A DNA stretch of 64,000 bases from NCBI RefSeq assembly GCF_913773995.1, contig NZ_CAJYES010000190.1, positions 1-64,000 on the forward strand, written 5' to 3'. The translations under genes and the position numbers were made by a program. Positions within the stretch are counted from its first letter, which is position 1; every line of letters begins with the position of its first letter. This document shows, piece by piece, positions 15,402 to 19,053 of the stretch. The notes below the pieces were generated by a model. The model searched no databases. It worked only from the letters and a program-made list of their open reading frames with translations, and had not been told where the DNA came from. This DNA is from an uncultured Pseudacidovorax sp. (GTDB lineage Bacteria; Pseudomonadota; Gammaproteobacteria; Burkholderiales; Burkholderiaceae_C).

Positions 15402-16387
15402 ACGAGCCGCTTTGCAACCGCCGGCATCTGCTCACCGCCGCGGCCCTGCTGGGCCTGCATCCCGCGATGGCCCATGCCCAGGCCGATGCCTGGCCGCAAC
15501 GCCCGCTCAAGCTGGTGGTGCCGGGGCCGCCCGGCGCCGGCTCGGACATCTTTGCGCGCCTGCTGGCCGTGAGCCTGCAGGAGGCCCTGGGCCAGCCGGT
15601 GGTGGTCGACAACCGTGCCGGTGCCAACGGGCTGATTGGCAACGAGGCGGTGGCGCGGGCGGCGGCCGATGGCTACACGCTGCTGCTGTCCCCCTCGTCG
15701 GCCATCGCCATCAACCCGGTGATCCAGCCGCGCATGCCCTACGACGCGCGCAAGGACCTGCAGCCCGTGGCACGGGTGGGATCGGCCGGCGTGCTGCTGG
15801 TGGTGCATCCGGCCACCGGACTGCGCTCGCTGGCCGATCTGGTGCGCGCCGCACGGGCGCAGCCGGACCGCATCGCCTACGGCTCCTGGGGCAGCGGCTC
15901 CACCGGCCACCTGGTGATGGAAGGCATCAAGGCGGAATACGGGCTGGTCATGCCCCATGTGCCGTACAAGGGCGTCTCGCCGCTGGTGGCCGACCTGCTG
16001 GCCAACACCATCGGCGTGGGCTTCGTGGACATCGCCTCGCCGGTGCCCCACATCCGCGCCGGCAAGCTGCTGGCCCTGGGCTGCACCGGCTCCGCCCGCG
16101 GCCCGGCCCTGCCCGAGGTGCCCACACTCACTGAGCAGGGCTACCGCTTCGACGTCGATGGCTGGTACGGCGTCTTCGTGCCGGCCGGCACGCCGCCGGC
16201 GGTGGTGCAGCGGCTCAACCGCGAGATCAACCGCATCCTGGCGACGCCGGAGGTGGTGCAGAAGTTCGCGGTGCAGAACATGCCGCGCCCACCGCTGAAG
16301 TCGGCCGAAGAATTCAGCGCCACCGTCTGGCGCGACATGGACAGCTGGCAGGGGCTGGCGAGGACGGCGCGGTTGCGGGTCGAGTGA
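15398..16387 (+). CDS. Bug/TctC-family solute-binding protein
   Basis: A 329-residue periplasmic binding protein. A twin-residue start (RRHLLTAAALLGL) and cleavage near AMAHAQA give an exported protein. Family segments are LKLVVPGPPGAGSDIFAR, VVVDNRAGANGLIGNE, MPYDARKDLQPVARVG and VPYKGVSPLVADLLA. The last gene of the catabolic operon, it overlaps the tandem SDR gene by ATGA and is preceded by GAGGAGA. It should capture the growth substrate or its precursor, tying uptake to the pathway genes before it. No membrane components are encoded nearby, so it must share permeases encoded elsewhere. Ligand unknown. Confidence 0.93.
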   Translation: MNEPLCNRRHLLTAAALLGLHPAMAHAQADAWPQRPLKLVVPGPPGAGSDIFARLLAVSLQEALGQPVVVDNRAGANGLIGNEAVARAAADGYTLLLSPSSAIAINPVIQPRMPYDARKDLQPVARVGSAGVLLVVHPATGLRSLADLVRAARAQPDRIAYGSWGSGSTGHLVMEGIKAEYGLVMPHVPYKGVSPLVADLLANTIGVGFVDIASPVPHIRAGKLLALGCTGSARGPALPEVPTLTEQGYRFDVDGWYGVFVPAGTPPAVVQRLNREINRILATPEVVQKFAVQNMPRPPLKSAEEFSATVWRDMDSWQGLARTARLRVE

Positions 16388-16441
16388 GGGGCGGCGTCGC
16401 TGCTGCGCTGGATGTCAAAGAGCTGTTCGAGGCAGGCGCCC

Positions 16442-17113
16442 TCAAAGCCGGCGCAGCTTGGCCACCCATGCAGCGAAGTGCAGGCATTGGGCCTCCATCC
16501 GAGCCAACCCGATGCGCTCGGCGGCAATGGGTCCGTGACGGAGCTTTCGATAGGACGGGCTGCGCAGCAAGGCCTCCAGGCGAGCGGACGGTTTGGTCTT
16601 GTGGCCATCGTTGAGTTCTTCGGGCGTCGTCACCGCCGACCGGGCCTTGACGAGATCCGGCAGCGCGGCCGACCAGCCTTCCTCGACGGAAGCAAGACTG
16701 GCGACATCGCTGAACAGGAGCGCTTCGAATTCGTGAGGCTGGATGTGGGCGATGAATCGATTCGGGTGGCATCCGCAGTGAGCCACCACGTCGGCATGCA
16801 GTCCGATCTCCAAGGTCTGAAGGCGAGCGGCCAAGCTGGCGTGAGGCTGTACCGTGGCATAGCCCGGAAACTGGGAATCCAGCTTGTAAAGATCGATCAA
16901 CGTCGTGACGGCCACGACGCGATTGCTCGCCAATGCATTGCGCAATGCCGGGCGCAAGCGGGCATAGCTCATCGCCCCACCCTTGTGACCTGGCGACGTC
17001 TCGACAGTGATGCCTTGAAGGTGAATGCCATCCGCTGCGAACGCCGGGAACAGCACCCGGGAGATGAAGGCTTCTTCGGTCTGGCCTTCACACACCACTA
17101 CCACGCGACGCAT
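16442..17113 (-). CDS. DUF4276 family protein, possible TOPRIM-like nuclease
   Basis: A 223-residue protein of the DUF4276 type. It opens with RRVVVVCEGQTEEAF, where a strand leads into E-G-x-T-E, much like the acidic motif that opens TOPRIM domains of OLD-type nucleases. TTLIDLYKLDSQFPGY follows, with an acidic strand end, and then IQPHEFEALLFSD. Start 17113 gives MRRVVVV and shares one base with the ATPase stop (TGATG), so the two are translationally coupled. ATPase plus TOPRIM pairs occur in several anti-phage systems (OLD/Gabija, PARIS). A nuclease or tRNase effector under ATPase control is therefore plausible but unproven. Base composition is lower in G+C than the flanks, which suggests transfer. 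Confidence 0.8.
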   Translation of the reverse strand: MRRVVVVCEGQTEEAFISRVLFPAFAADGIHLQGITVETSPGHKGGAMSYARLRPALRNALASNRVVAVTTLIDLYKLDSQFPGYATVQPHASLAARLQTLEIGLHADVVAHCGCHPNRFIAHIQPHEFEALLFSDVASLASVEEGWSAALPDLVKARSAVTTPEELNDGHKTKPSARLEALLRSPSYRKLRHGPIAAERIGLARMEAQCLHFAAWVAKLRRL

Positions 17114-18216
17114 CACAGACTGGGCCTCCCGCCAATCACATTGCGCTTCCATAGCTCGCCCAGGCTCTGGTAGTCGTCCAGCCAACCCCGGAGTTCCTCG
17201 ACGTCCAGGCGCTCGAGCGTCGTGGCCCCATCCACGCGCTGCGCCACCACCACATCCTTAGGCTCCATGGCATTCAGCAGTTCGACCGACTGTGTGGAGA
17301 CGATCAACTGCTTGGTTTGGGCCAACTCTTTCATCATGTCCGCCAGCAGGTTGATGGCAAACGGGTGCAAGCCCAGTTCCGGCTCGTCGATCAGGATGGT
17401 GTCCGGCAACAAATGCGATGGTTGCAGCAGCAGCGTCGTCAGACAGATGAAGCGCAGCGTGCCGTCCGAAAGCGTGTGGGCCCGGTACGGCGTCTCGGGA
17501 TCGCTCTGCTCGAACCATTCCAACTCCACCGTATCGGGCATCGGCTCCCGCTCCACGAAACCACCGAAAAATGGTGCCGCCAGCTTGATCGTGTCGACGA
17601 TGCGCTGATAGGCGGCCTGGTGCGATGGCAGCGCGCGAAGGCGGTAGAGGTAGGCCGCGAGATTGTCCGCTTGGGGCTTCAGCCGAAGGTTGTCATTGCT
17701 TGGATGGGGCAGCTTGACGGCTGCGCCTTCGCTCGTGTCGTGAAAGTGGAACTGCTGCCAGCTCTTCATCCATCGCGACACATAGTGGCTGACCTGGCGT
17801 CTATCTGTCAGTAGCCGAGCTTCCTCGTGCGCGCTGCCGAGCTCATAGCGCTTGACGACGTAGTCGCCGTCGATCCAAGGCACCTCACGGACGAACTGGA
17901 TTCGGTTGTCCGCCGTTGGAGCAAGCGTGATGTCGTATCCGTTGACGACGCCGCCGTTGGGCCTGAATTTCAAGGCGATGCTGAGTTGGGGCGTCCTTTT
18001 GCGTCCGCCATGCAGCAGCACGTCGGGGCCGCCCTGCGATTTGACGTAGGTTTGCAAGTTACCTTGCGAGGCAGCCGTCAGTAGACGGAAGAGCGACAGG
18101 AAGTTGCTCTTGCCGGCGCCGTTCGCGCCAATCAGGACGTTCAGGTTGCCCAGAGCGAACTGATCGACTTTGGCAAAGGACTTGTAGCCCTCGATGCTGA
18201 TGGTGTCGATCTTCAT
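17113..18216 (-). CDS. AAA family ATPase (SMC/OLD-like, AAA_21)
   Basis: A 367-residue ABC/SMC-type ATPase. Walker A is GANGAGKS (residues 30-37) after IEGYKSFAKVDQFALG. The signature region is LSDGTLRFICLTTLL, Walker B is DTILIDEPELGLHP, and the switch-His region is LIVSTQSVELLNAM. Such AAA_15/AAA_21 ATPases are the sensor or motor partners in many two-gene defence modules. Here it is coupled by a one-base overlap to the DUF4276 gene downstream. A 60-base stretch at 17281-17340 is 50% G+C by my count, against 82% for a stretch in the operon at 10501. It carries no TOPRIM domain of its own. Function as a defence protein is inferred from architecture only. Confidence 0.88.
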   Translation of the reverse strand: MKIDTISIEGYKSFAKVDQFALGNLNVLIGANGAGKSNFLSLFRLLTAASQGNLQTYVKSQGGPDVLLHGGRKRTPQLSIALKFRPNGGVVNGYDITLAPTADNRIQFVREVPWIDGDYVVKRYELGSAHEEARLLTDRRQVSHYVSRWMKSWQQFHFHDTSEGAAVKLPHPSNDNLRLKPQADNLAAYLYRLRALPSHQAAYQRIVDTIKLAAPFFGGFVEREPMPDTVELEWFEQSDPETPYRAHTLSDGTLRFICLTTLLLQPSHLLPDTILIDEPELGLHPFAINLLADMMKELAQTKQLIVSTQSVELLNAMEPKDVVVAQRVDGATTLERLDVEELRGWLDDYQSLGELWKRNVIGGRPSL

Positions 18217-18259
18217 GGGGTGCCTTTCGAATGCATTGTGGTCAGAGCCTCATACACGC

Positions 18260-18661
18260 TCAGCGCGGGTCTGGCGGGTTGGCGCCCGGCCACAGGTGGG
18301 CGAAGTCGAATGAAAGCTGGCGGTGGTGCCGGATGGACAGCAGATAGACCGTCGCACTGGCGTCCACGACGGTGTAGAGCACCAGGTAGTCGCCATGCAG
18401 GTACTCGCGCAAAGCGCTGGCCGCGCCGGCGGGCAGTGCTGCGAGCTGGGCCAGTGCTTCGGCCGACTGCGGCGGGTTGTCCAGGTAGCGCCTGCCGATG
18501 CGAGGGAAGCGCGCCAAATTGGGGATGACCGTGGCACGCAGGCCGGCCAGCAGATCATCGAAGGCGAAAGCCGCGTCGGCTTCGGCCAGAAAGGCCTCGA
18601 TGGCGTCCAGCCGCTCCAGAAAGCTCGCGGTCAGTTCGACCCGATGCAGGGCCTCAGCCAC
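18260..18661 (-). CDS. RelE/ParE-superfamily toxin
   Basis: A 133-residue protein with the RelE/ParE toxin pattern: VELTASFLERLDAIEAFL at the N-terminus, then VIPNLARFPRIGRRYLD, and the closing strands LVLYTVVDASATVYLLSIRHHRQLSF. It is somewhat longer than the usual 90-110 residues. The start is GTG at 18661, overlapping the last codons of the antitoxin gene by eight bases; no ATG is available nearer. The antitoxin-first order with overlap is normal for type II toxin-antitoxin pairs. RelE members cut mRNA on the ribosome and ParE members poison gyrase; which applies here cannot be decided by eye. It sits 43 bp from the ATPase gene. Confidence 0.83.
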   Translation of the reverse strand: MAEALHRVELTASFLERLDAIEAFLAEADAAFAFDDLLAGLRATVIPNLARFPRIGRRYLDNPPQSAEALAQLAALPAGAASALREYLHGDYLVLYTVVDASATVYLLSIRHHRQLSFDFAHLWPGANPPDPR

Positions 18662-18977
18662 GCTTCTTGGCGGCTTTGCGAGTTGGGACGGCCGCGCGGC
18701 GCTGCTGAAGCTGGGCGATGGCCGCATCGGCACCATAGGTGCGGCCGGCCTCGATGTCGGCGATGCCGCGCCGGGCATCGTCGATCAGCAGCAGATGGAT
18801 GCGCTCGCGCTCCAGGCGGTGGTAGTAGTCCAGCCGGTCGGCGTCGATGAGGGCGACGTAGCTTTCACCGTTCTTGGTGATGATCTTCTCGGCGCCGGCC
18901 TTGGCCTGATCGGCCAGTTCCGAGAGGTTGGCACGCGCCTGGGTGAAAGGCACGACGTCGCTGGCGGAAAAGCCCAT
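18654..18977 (-). CDS. Phd/YefM-family antitoxin
   Basis: A 107-residue antitoxin. The N-terminal part DVVPFTQARANLSELADQAK and the following strand KIITKNGESYVALIDADRL match the Phd/YefM DNA-binding fold. The C-terminal part, rich in charged residues and ending in KAAKKRG, would wrap the toxin. The start at 18977 follows AAGGAG (spacing about seven). Phd/YefM proteins repress their own operon through palindromes overlapping the promoter. The AT-richer segment 18978-19020 (GAATTCTGCGCAG and nearby) is the place to look. It is partner of the toxin gene that overlaps its 3' end. Confidence 0.87.
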   Translation of the reverse strand: MGFSASDVVPFTQARANLSELADQAKAGAEKIITKNGESYVALIDADRLDYYHRLERERIHLLLIDDARRGIADIEAGRTYGADAAIAQLQQRRAAVPTRKAAKKRG

Positions 18978-19053
18978 GACCGGCTCCTTGAGGTTGCAGA
19001 ATTCTGCGCAGTCTAAAGGAGGGGCCGGCGGGTCTCGGGCCAATACCGACCGC

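Follow-up and report, generated by a model that had tools for sequence, protein, structure and literature searches.

The window analysed here is a stretch of 64,000 nucleotides (contig NZ_CAJYES010000190.1, RefSeq assembly GCF_913773995.1) from an uncultured Pseudacidovorax sp., and our subject is a pair of minus-strand genes within it that code for an ATPase and a DUF4276 protein. An earlier reading made from the letters alone (the sequence-only reading) had described a one-base TGATG overlap between the two genes and proposed that they form a defence module, outside any named system, in which an ATPase gates a nuclease. Both open reading frames (ORFs) were found again where that reading had placed them, each with an ATG start, and the overlap is present. 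The features of the pair are:

17113..18216, minus strand: HEC-01A-type ATPase gene, 367 amino acids, with an SMC/Rad50/PtuA/OLD-like ABC head
16442..17113, minus strand: HEC-01B-type DUF4276 gene, 223 amino acids, predicted TOPRIM-like nuclease
17111..17115, minus strand: TGATG stop/start overlap, base 17113 being common to both genes
18106-18129, minus strand: Walker A of the ATPase
17461-17469, minus strand: SDG of the ATPase signature
17383-17388, minus strand: DE of the ATPase Walker B (D277/E278)
17087-17089, minus strand: E9 of the DUF4276 protein
16892-16894, minus strand: D74 of the DUF4276 protein
16730-16732, minus strand: E128 of the DUF4276 protein
16724-16726, minus strand: E130 of the DUF4276 protein
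16544-16546, minus strand: K190 of the DUF4276 protein

By profile match the pair is a member of HEC-01 (Hma-embedded candidate 1), a candidate system already listed in PADLOC, since both proteins match its models over nearly their full lengths: the ATPase matches HEC-01A model PDLC04175 (2.9e-131, residues 2-365 of 367) and the DUF4276 protein matches HEC-01B model PDLC04188 (1.5e-69, residues 1-222 of 223). These matches were made with PADLOC's profile models rather than with its own system rule (required genes, spacing), and the two genes adjoin, as expected for HEC-01, here with a one-base overlap. The claim that the pair lies outside any named system is thus withdrawn, and because the family is already listed the module is less novel than first proposed.

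The ATPase matches AAA_21 in Pfam (3.6e-29), and none of the best 25 of its 86 NCBIfam matches reaches the family cut-off. Its Walker A lysine is K36, and Gln309 stands at the expected position of the H-loop residue, which is normally His. The head is similar to TsOLD and GajA in Foldseek and resembles SMC and Rad50; as modelled, the protein is an ABC/SMC-type head without a coiled coil. At its C-terminus (window 17113-17184) residues W345, L346, W356, N359 and P365 are kept in 38/38 homologues, with residues 361-367 modelled at a predicted local distance difference test score (pLDDT) below 50, and this conserved end is a possible contact with the DUF4276 partner.

The DUF4276 protein begins with MRRVVVVCEGQTEE, and the N-terminal acidic motif CEGQTEE picked out by the sequence-only reading is well kept among its relatives, with E9, G10 and E13 present in 41/41 aligned sequences and E14 in 40/41. 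D74, E128 and E130 are likewise present in 41/41 and K190 in 40/41, and the roles of these residues are inferred from OLD residues in PMC6755086 (this and the other papers given by PMC number are cited from passages of them). The protein matches DUF4276 in Pfam (PF14103, 4.6e-46) and no other Pfam family up to E 1; NCBIfam returned no family for it and PHROGs nothing, and a search of PDB sequences (phmmer and profile) gave just a weak match to a ribosomal protein (E 0.37). Its model is predicted to have the TOPRIM fold, and in VIA it is matched best by the TOPRIM domains of the OLD proteins Bp and Xcc. In the VIA alignment, model residue 1 falls on position 392 of the BpOLD chain, which by numbering would place E9 and E13 on the motif and metal-B glutamates (BpOLD E400 and E404) if that stretch is ungapped. 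We regard the protein as probably a variant TOPRIM nuclease with an OLD/TOPRIM-like fold. The OLD-type TOPRIM likeness claimed from the motif stands for the predicted fold and the motif glutamate, and does not extend to the second Asp of the DxD motif, which is weighed below.

A scan of genome contigs with the DUF4276 protein gave 53 loci (the first set), and 52 of them have an ATPase match immediately upstream in the same orientation, broken in some (for instance L052, L054); the exception, L045, is cut by a contig end. Among these 52 loci the stop/start overlap is 4 bases in 33 and 1 base in 10, and since 43/52 homologous loci have an overlap of one or other length, the overlap of the genes is not due to chance. 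The second set came from a profile search of genomes sampled evenly across the family (299) and the order (399) and holds 38 loci besides the window and genome G004, with the ATPase adjoining in 35/38; of the other three, L165 has pieces that resemble the ATPase, L161 starts at the edge of its contig, and no ATPase is seen in L156. Divergence in one protein runs parallel to that in the other (Mantel r 0.85 for 38 sequences, 0/2000 permutations as high), the DUF4276 protein being the less conserved in 672/703 comparisons. The DUF4276 alignment (A1) took 40/53 relatives and the ATPase alignment (A2) 37/52, near-duplicates and cut or broken copies being omitted. Relatives of the DUF4276 protein occur in 2/15 genomes of the genus (one of them that of the window), 18/299 of the family and 19/399 of the order, and the distribution is patchy. 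In Trinickia diaoshuihuensis the same locus is found on two scaffolds with identical match values (L043 and L044), reflecting either assembly or a true duplication.

The window's genome also contains a second, distant ATPase-DUF4276 pair (G000:C245, at ~142.5 kb; L002:170-1363 and 1363-1938). It matches HEC-01 models PDLC04144 (1.9e-192) and PDLC04143 (2.5e-58), whose A/B labels are reversed relative to most other HEC-01 models. Its DUF4276 protein has the DxD-like RDNDNAD at the place where IDLYKLD is read by eye in the window protein, and hhalign of alignment A1 against it gave a probability of 1.2%.

The lower G+C content that the sequence-only reading reported for the pair is real, with 61.4% against a window mean of 70.2%, because only 2/623 sliding windows of 1775 bases are as low or lower. 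The pair also lies at a spot that carries other cargo elsewhere in the genus, next to a Phd-ParE locus:

18260..18778, minus strand: ORF whose C-terminal part matches a ParE toxin domain in Pfam
18654..19016, minus strand: coding region of a Phd/YefM antitoxin, start position approximate
16392..18257, no strand: segment exchanged between species of the genus, with other cargo in G009 and G012
16404 to 19049, no strand: exchange in G013, wider than in G009 and G012

The ParE-domain ORF is co-oriented with the ATPase gene and ends 43 bases ahead of its start. Downstream of the pair lies a convergent plus-strand gene ending at 16387, tctC-like as named by eye. The ORF list of the window contains no restriction-modification (R-M) genes adjoining the pair and no helicase, methylase or GajB helicase gene next to it, and the one HSDR_N match of the genome sits on another contig (G000:C18).

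Taking strong matches alone, among the matches listed, G009 and G012 share the window's flanks up to 16391/16389 and from 18258/18257, and G013 shares them up to 16403 and from 19050. At this spot G012 carries Mrr (Mrr_cat 2.7e-24) and RhuM (8.3e-111), G009 carries an Mrr broken by a frameshift along with a DUF6402 protein and its small partner, and G013 carries a DUF6402 protein with a like partner and has no Phd-ParE match. The Mrr-type gene is in two frames in G009 (L068:5367-6276) and in one intact frame in G012. The DUF6402 protein and its partner of 227/215 amino acids are at L068:3055-5069 (1.1e-70) and L070:3468-5287 (2.1e-70), and PADLOC has no match for either protein of L068.

The Ideonella dechloratans plasmid NZ_CP088082 has, in a row, Phd-ParE, a 903-residue protein, an N6/N4 methylase, the ATPase, the DUF4276 protein and Mrr. 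The 903-residue protein is annotated as a DEAD/DEAH helicase and gave no match in Pfam or PADLOC within the limits applied. At the DNA level the Phd-ParE segment is 81-82% identical to four copies in the genus (82% to that of the window), the ATPase-DUF4276 segment is 79% identical to the window, and Mrr is 88% and 87% identical to those of G009 and G012. Because this row matches the Phd-ParE, the pair and the Mrr of the genus alleles, the alleles of the window and its sisters appear to be a single R-M-type cassette reduced in different ways; a shared site that had received its cargo in separate events would give much the same picture. Compared with P. intermedius (L003), the DUF4276 gene has 97.9% DNA identity and the ATPase gene just 92.5%, whereas compared with Ideonella the order is reversed (73% and 82%), as would be seen in a mosaic pair.

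Elsewhere the relatives occur in several kinds of R-M setting. In the first set an HsdR cluster of type I R-M follows the DUF4276 gene in 14/53 loci, with an HsdM cluster upstream in 8 and an HsdS cluster upstream in 9, these identities coming from a Pfam scan of one member per protein cluster (L045 for HsdR). A type III arrangement, mod-ATPase-DUF4276-res, is present on the A. veronii plasmid pHX3, and Mod and Res matches adjoin the pair in survey loci L130 and L138. SNF2/DEAD helicases, some with methylases, adjoin it on A. media plasmids and in L136 and L158, and in Pseudomonas dryadis (L046) a helicase setting includes a type IIG match. Eight plasmid loci with the pair were viewed; L077, L078, L080 and L097 (4) have R-M or helicase neighbours (L078 and L097 being alike), and L079, L081, L082 and L098 have no such adjoining genes. 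L079, on the small mobilizable Acinetobacter plasmid pTR11_2, has its relative of the pair flanked by VapBC on one side and by tet(39) and its TetR-type gene on the other.

R-M or helicase genes directly adjoin the pair in 14/52 first-set loci and in 5/36 survey loci, against 5/1442 placements in 38 control stretches from the same genomes (Fisher value 1.5e-6, approximate as control placements overlap one another). This count omitted L044 from the first set and, from the survey, L128 and L149, which come from the same genomes as L005 and L031; the R-M query proteins, for this count and for the ~9 kb count below, were mostly taken from first-set and plasmid neighbours of the pair, which favours those sets.

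What is seen, then, is a closely linked gene pair with predicted folds and conserved motifs, a patchy spread, linkage to R-M genes in a minority of loci, and exchange with other cargo. With moderate confidence we read the pair as an anti-phage module in which the ATPase would gate a TOPRIM-type nuclease and act by abortive infection. We infer complex formation, silencing, trigger, substrate and outcome as follows. The ATPase would assemble with the DUF4276 protein and keep the nuclease silent until a phage-made trigger altered its ATP binding or hydrolysis; the nuclease, freed or activated, would then cut nucleic acid, most likely tRNA as with AriB of PARIS, or else DNA as with OLD, and the infection would abort. 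The roles of the ATPase in sensing and gating and of the DUF4276 protein in cutting are proposed because of the analogy with PARIS, in which an AriA hexamer holds AriB, a tRNase (PMC12409363), and with OLD (PMC10568477).

A number of observations weigh against this reading. The DxD motif of the DUF4276 protein is incomplete, with Tyr at position 76 in 40/41 sequences and His in one. The margin of the best VIA matches over unrelated folds (7.4) is modest, AriB (7.7) being near that level, and Foldseek gave no match to the model below E 0.001, with 8ux9_A at E 0.1. Three of the 15 plasmid records with the ATPase lack a DUF4276 match, and an obligate pairing from the ATPase side is rejected on that count. 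The one of these three that was viewed, a Tolypothrix plasmid (L083), has an ATPase 51.5% identical to that of the window with no DUF4276 gene next to it, followed by genes for a 228-residue protein that has no clear match in Pfam and for a TPR protein. No relative was found among 50,697 phage records, and a pattern scan of IMG/VR gave no confirmed relative. No phage assay of HEC-01 was found in the literature searched, which did not cover Payne et al. 2024, and DUF4276 had no mention there. R-M-type matches within ~9 kb occur in 11/38 survey loci and 5/38 control stretches; because this excess is weak and direct adjacency is limited to the loci counted above, embedding in R-M operons is taken to be the less common state. 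Core genes flank many relatives that stand alone, several lineages keeping the pair at one site of this kind: by eye, parts of MetH are on both sides in 7/53 loci (two of them identical), the order obgE-pair-proB is found in 4/53, and survey loci lie in hom-thrC, greA-ftsH and ispH-ffh settings. The defence proposal of the sequence-only reading gains partial support: the predicted fold and acidic motif, the ABC/SMC-type ATPase, the close pairing, the patchy distribution, the minority R-M linkage and the cargo exchange favour it, and the incomplete DxD motif and the stand-alone copies at core-gene sites weaken it.

A housekeeping role is rejected as the leading explanation despite the MetH and obgE-proB loci, because prevalence is low and the metH site is empty in most of the Trinickia genomes. 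The pair is present between metH1 and metH2 in 2/11 of these, and in the other 9 the matched metH1 and metH2 ends are 14-93 bases apart, which shows the insertion to be clean; by eye, no target duplication or terminal repeat was noticed there.

A tentative alternative is that the pair is a portable restriction guard of the PARIS/PrrC kind that plugs into unrelated restriction systems. Its sites would be those before hsdR (type I), between mod and res (type III), and beside SNF2/DEAD helicases and Mrr, and it would fire when the host enzyme was disabled by an anti-restriction factor of a phage, using a TOPRIM active site that has Tyr rather than the second Asp. The R-M embedding brings to mind PrrC, which is silenced by its linked type I enzyme and freed by a phage anti-restriction peptide (PMC2610378). 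Stand-alone copies such as that of the window, which has no linked type I R-M genes, would act as guards in trans or detect the anti-restriction factor themselves.

Rather doubtful is a selfish addiction or stabilisation module, with the ATPase as antitoxin and the DUF4276 protein as toxin, whose loss kills and for which phage defence is secondary or absent. Such a module would hitch-hike inside R-M and core operons, and a passenger-like position is indeed seen in stand-alone loci, where the gene upstream is co-oriented in 46/57 with a median gap of ~85 bases (heuristic gene calls in lineages that are not independent, omitting L044, L045, L128, L149 and loci without an adjoining ATPase; the R-M class of the comparison is 26 loci set partly by eye). 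The clean metH insertion, the presence of the pair on 12 plasmid records and the adjoining Phd-ParE fit as well. However, an addiction role by itself would not favour R-M neighbours, whereas direct restriction/helicase adjacency is above control and the pair is exchanged with Mrr/RhuM.

A role outside defence, as an ATPase-TOPRIM unit acting in DNA repair or in the cell cycle in the manner of RecF/Rad50 partners or of the archaeal OLD protein Cran1, which shows that OLD ATPases can have such roles (PMC12796447), is unlikely: the SMC- and Rad50-like head and the lineages that keep the pair at one core site would suit it, and the low prevalence in genus, family and order, the empty metH sites and the minority R-M embedding argue against it. 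Least probable is a weakened partner that binds nucleic acid or an R-M enzyme and modulates restriction without cutting, which the Tyr in the DxD motif and the recurrent linkage to hsdR, mod and res would favour, since the invariant E9, E13, D74, E128 and E130 and the nearly invariant K190 are as expected for a metal-dependent active site and many copies stand alone without adjoining R-M genes.

Read as an anti-phage module, the pair belongs with the split ATPase-TOPRIM pairs outside PARIS, which are listed and little understood. That the family has inserted next to restriction genes in R-M operons of different types, and that its active site is a variant one, gives a concrete and testable guard idea, and same-site exchange within one genus shows the possible gain, loss and reduction of such modules.

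Among known systems, PrrC and RloC resemble some relatives of the pair in that type I R-M operons encode an ABC ATPase-linked effector, with hsdS and hsdR on either side of prrC. They are often found in R-M operons and with RhuM-like genes, and each joins a HEPN domain and the ABC ATPase in a single protein (PMC3710099), whereas the window has two genes. AbiL membership is rejected by profile, the ATPase matching AbiLi in PADLOC (1.9e-18) and the partner matching AbiLii at just 0.058. OLD and GajA have like ATPase heads, and the OLD TOPRIM domains are the partner's closest structural matches, but here the domains are on separate genes and Tyr replaces the second Asp of DxD. Gabija is rejected by profile and also because GajA has ATPase and TOPRIM in one chain and there is no GajB, the downstream gene being the convergent tctC-like one.

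PARIS (AriA-AriB) is, like the window pair, composed of two genes for an ABC ATPase and a TOPRIM-like partner. AriB is of the DUF4435 kind, whereas the window partner matches DUF4276 and neither DUF4435 nor AriB models (no AriB match in PADLOC up to E 1), and the ATPase scores ~340 bits higher with HEC-01A than with AriA; PARIS membership is rejected by these Pfam and PADLOC profiles. A survey of DUF4435 found it in 2/200 genomes, too few for a profile.

HEC-01 has the same two-gene ATPase and DUF4276 make-up, the window copy differing by the Phd-ParE beside it without an adjoining helicase or methylase gene. A list of systems predicted in Desulfovibrio piger names HEC-01 (PMC12724379); the HEC candidates go unmentioned in passages of Payne et al. 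2021 (PMC8565338), and several Hma-embedded candidates including HEC-06 are reported to have antiviral activity (PMC12988326, citing Payne et al. 2024). HEC-04/IbfA, compared by description, couples an ABC ATPase to a TOPRIM domain as the window pair appears to do, in one fused polypeptide rather than two genes, and HEC-04 is reported to act against T4 and T5 (PMC12111858, citing Payne 2024).
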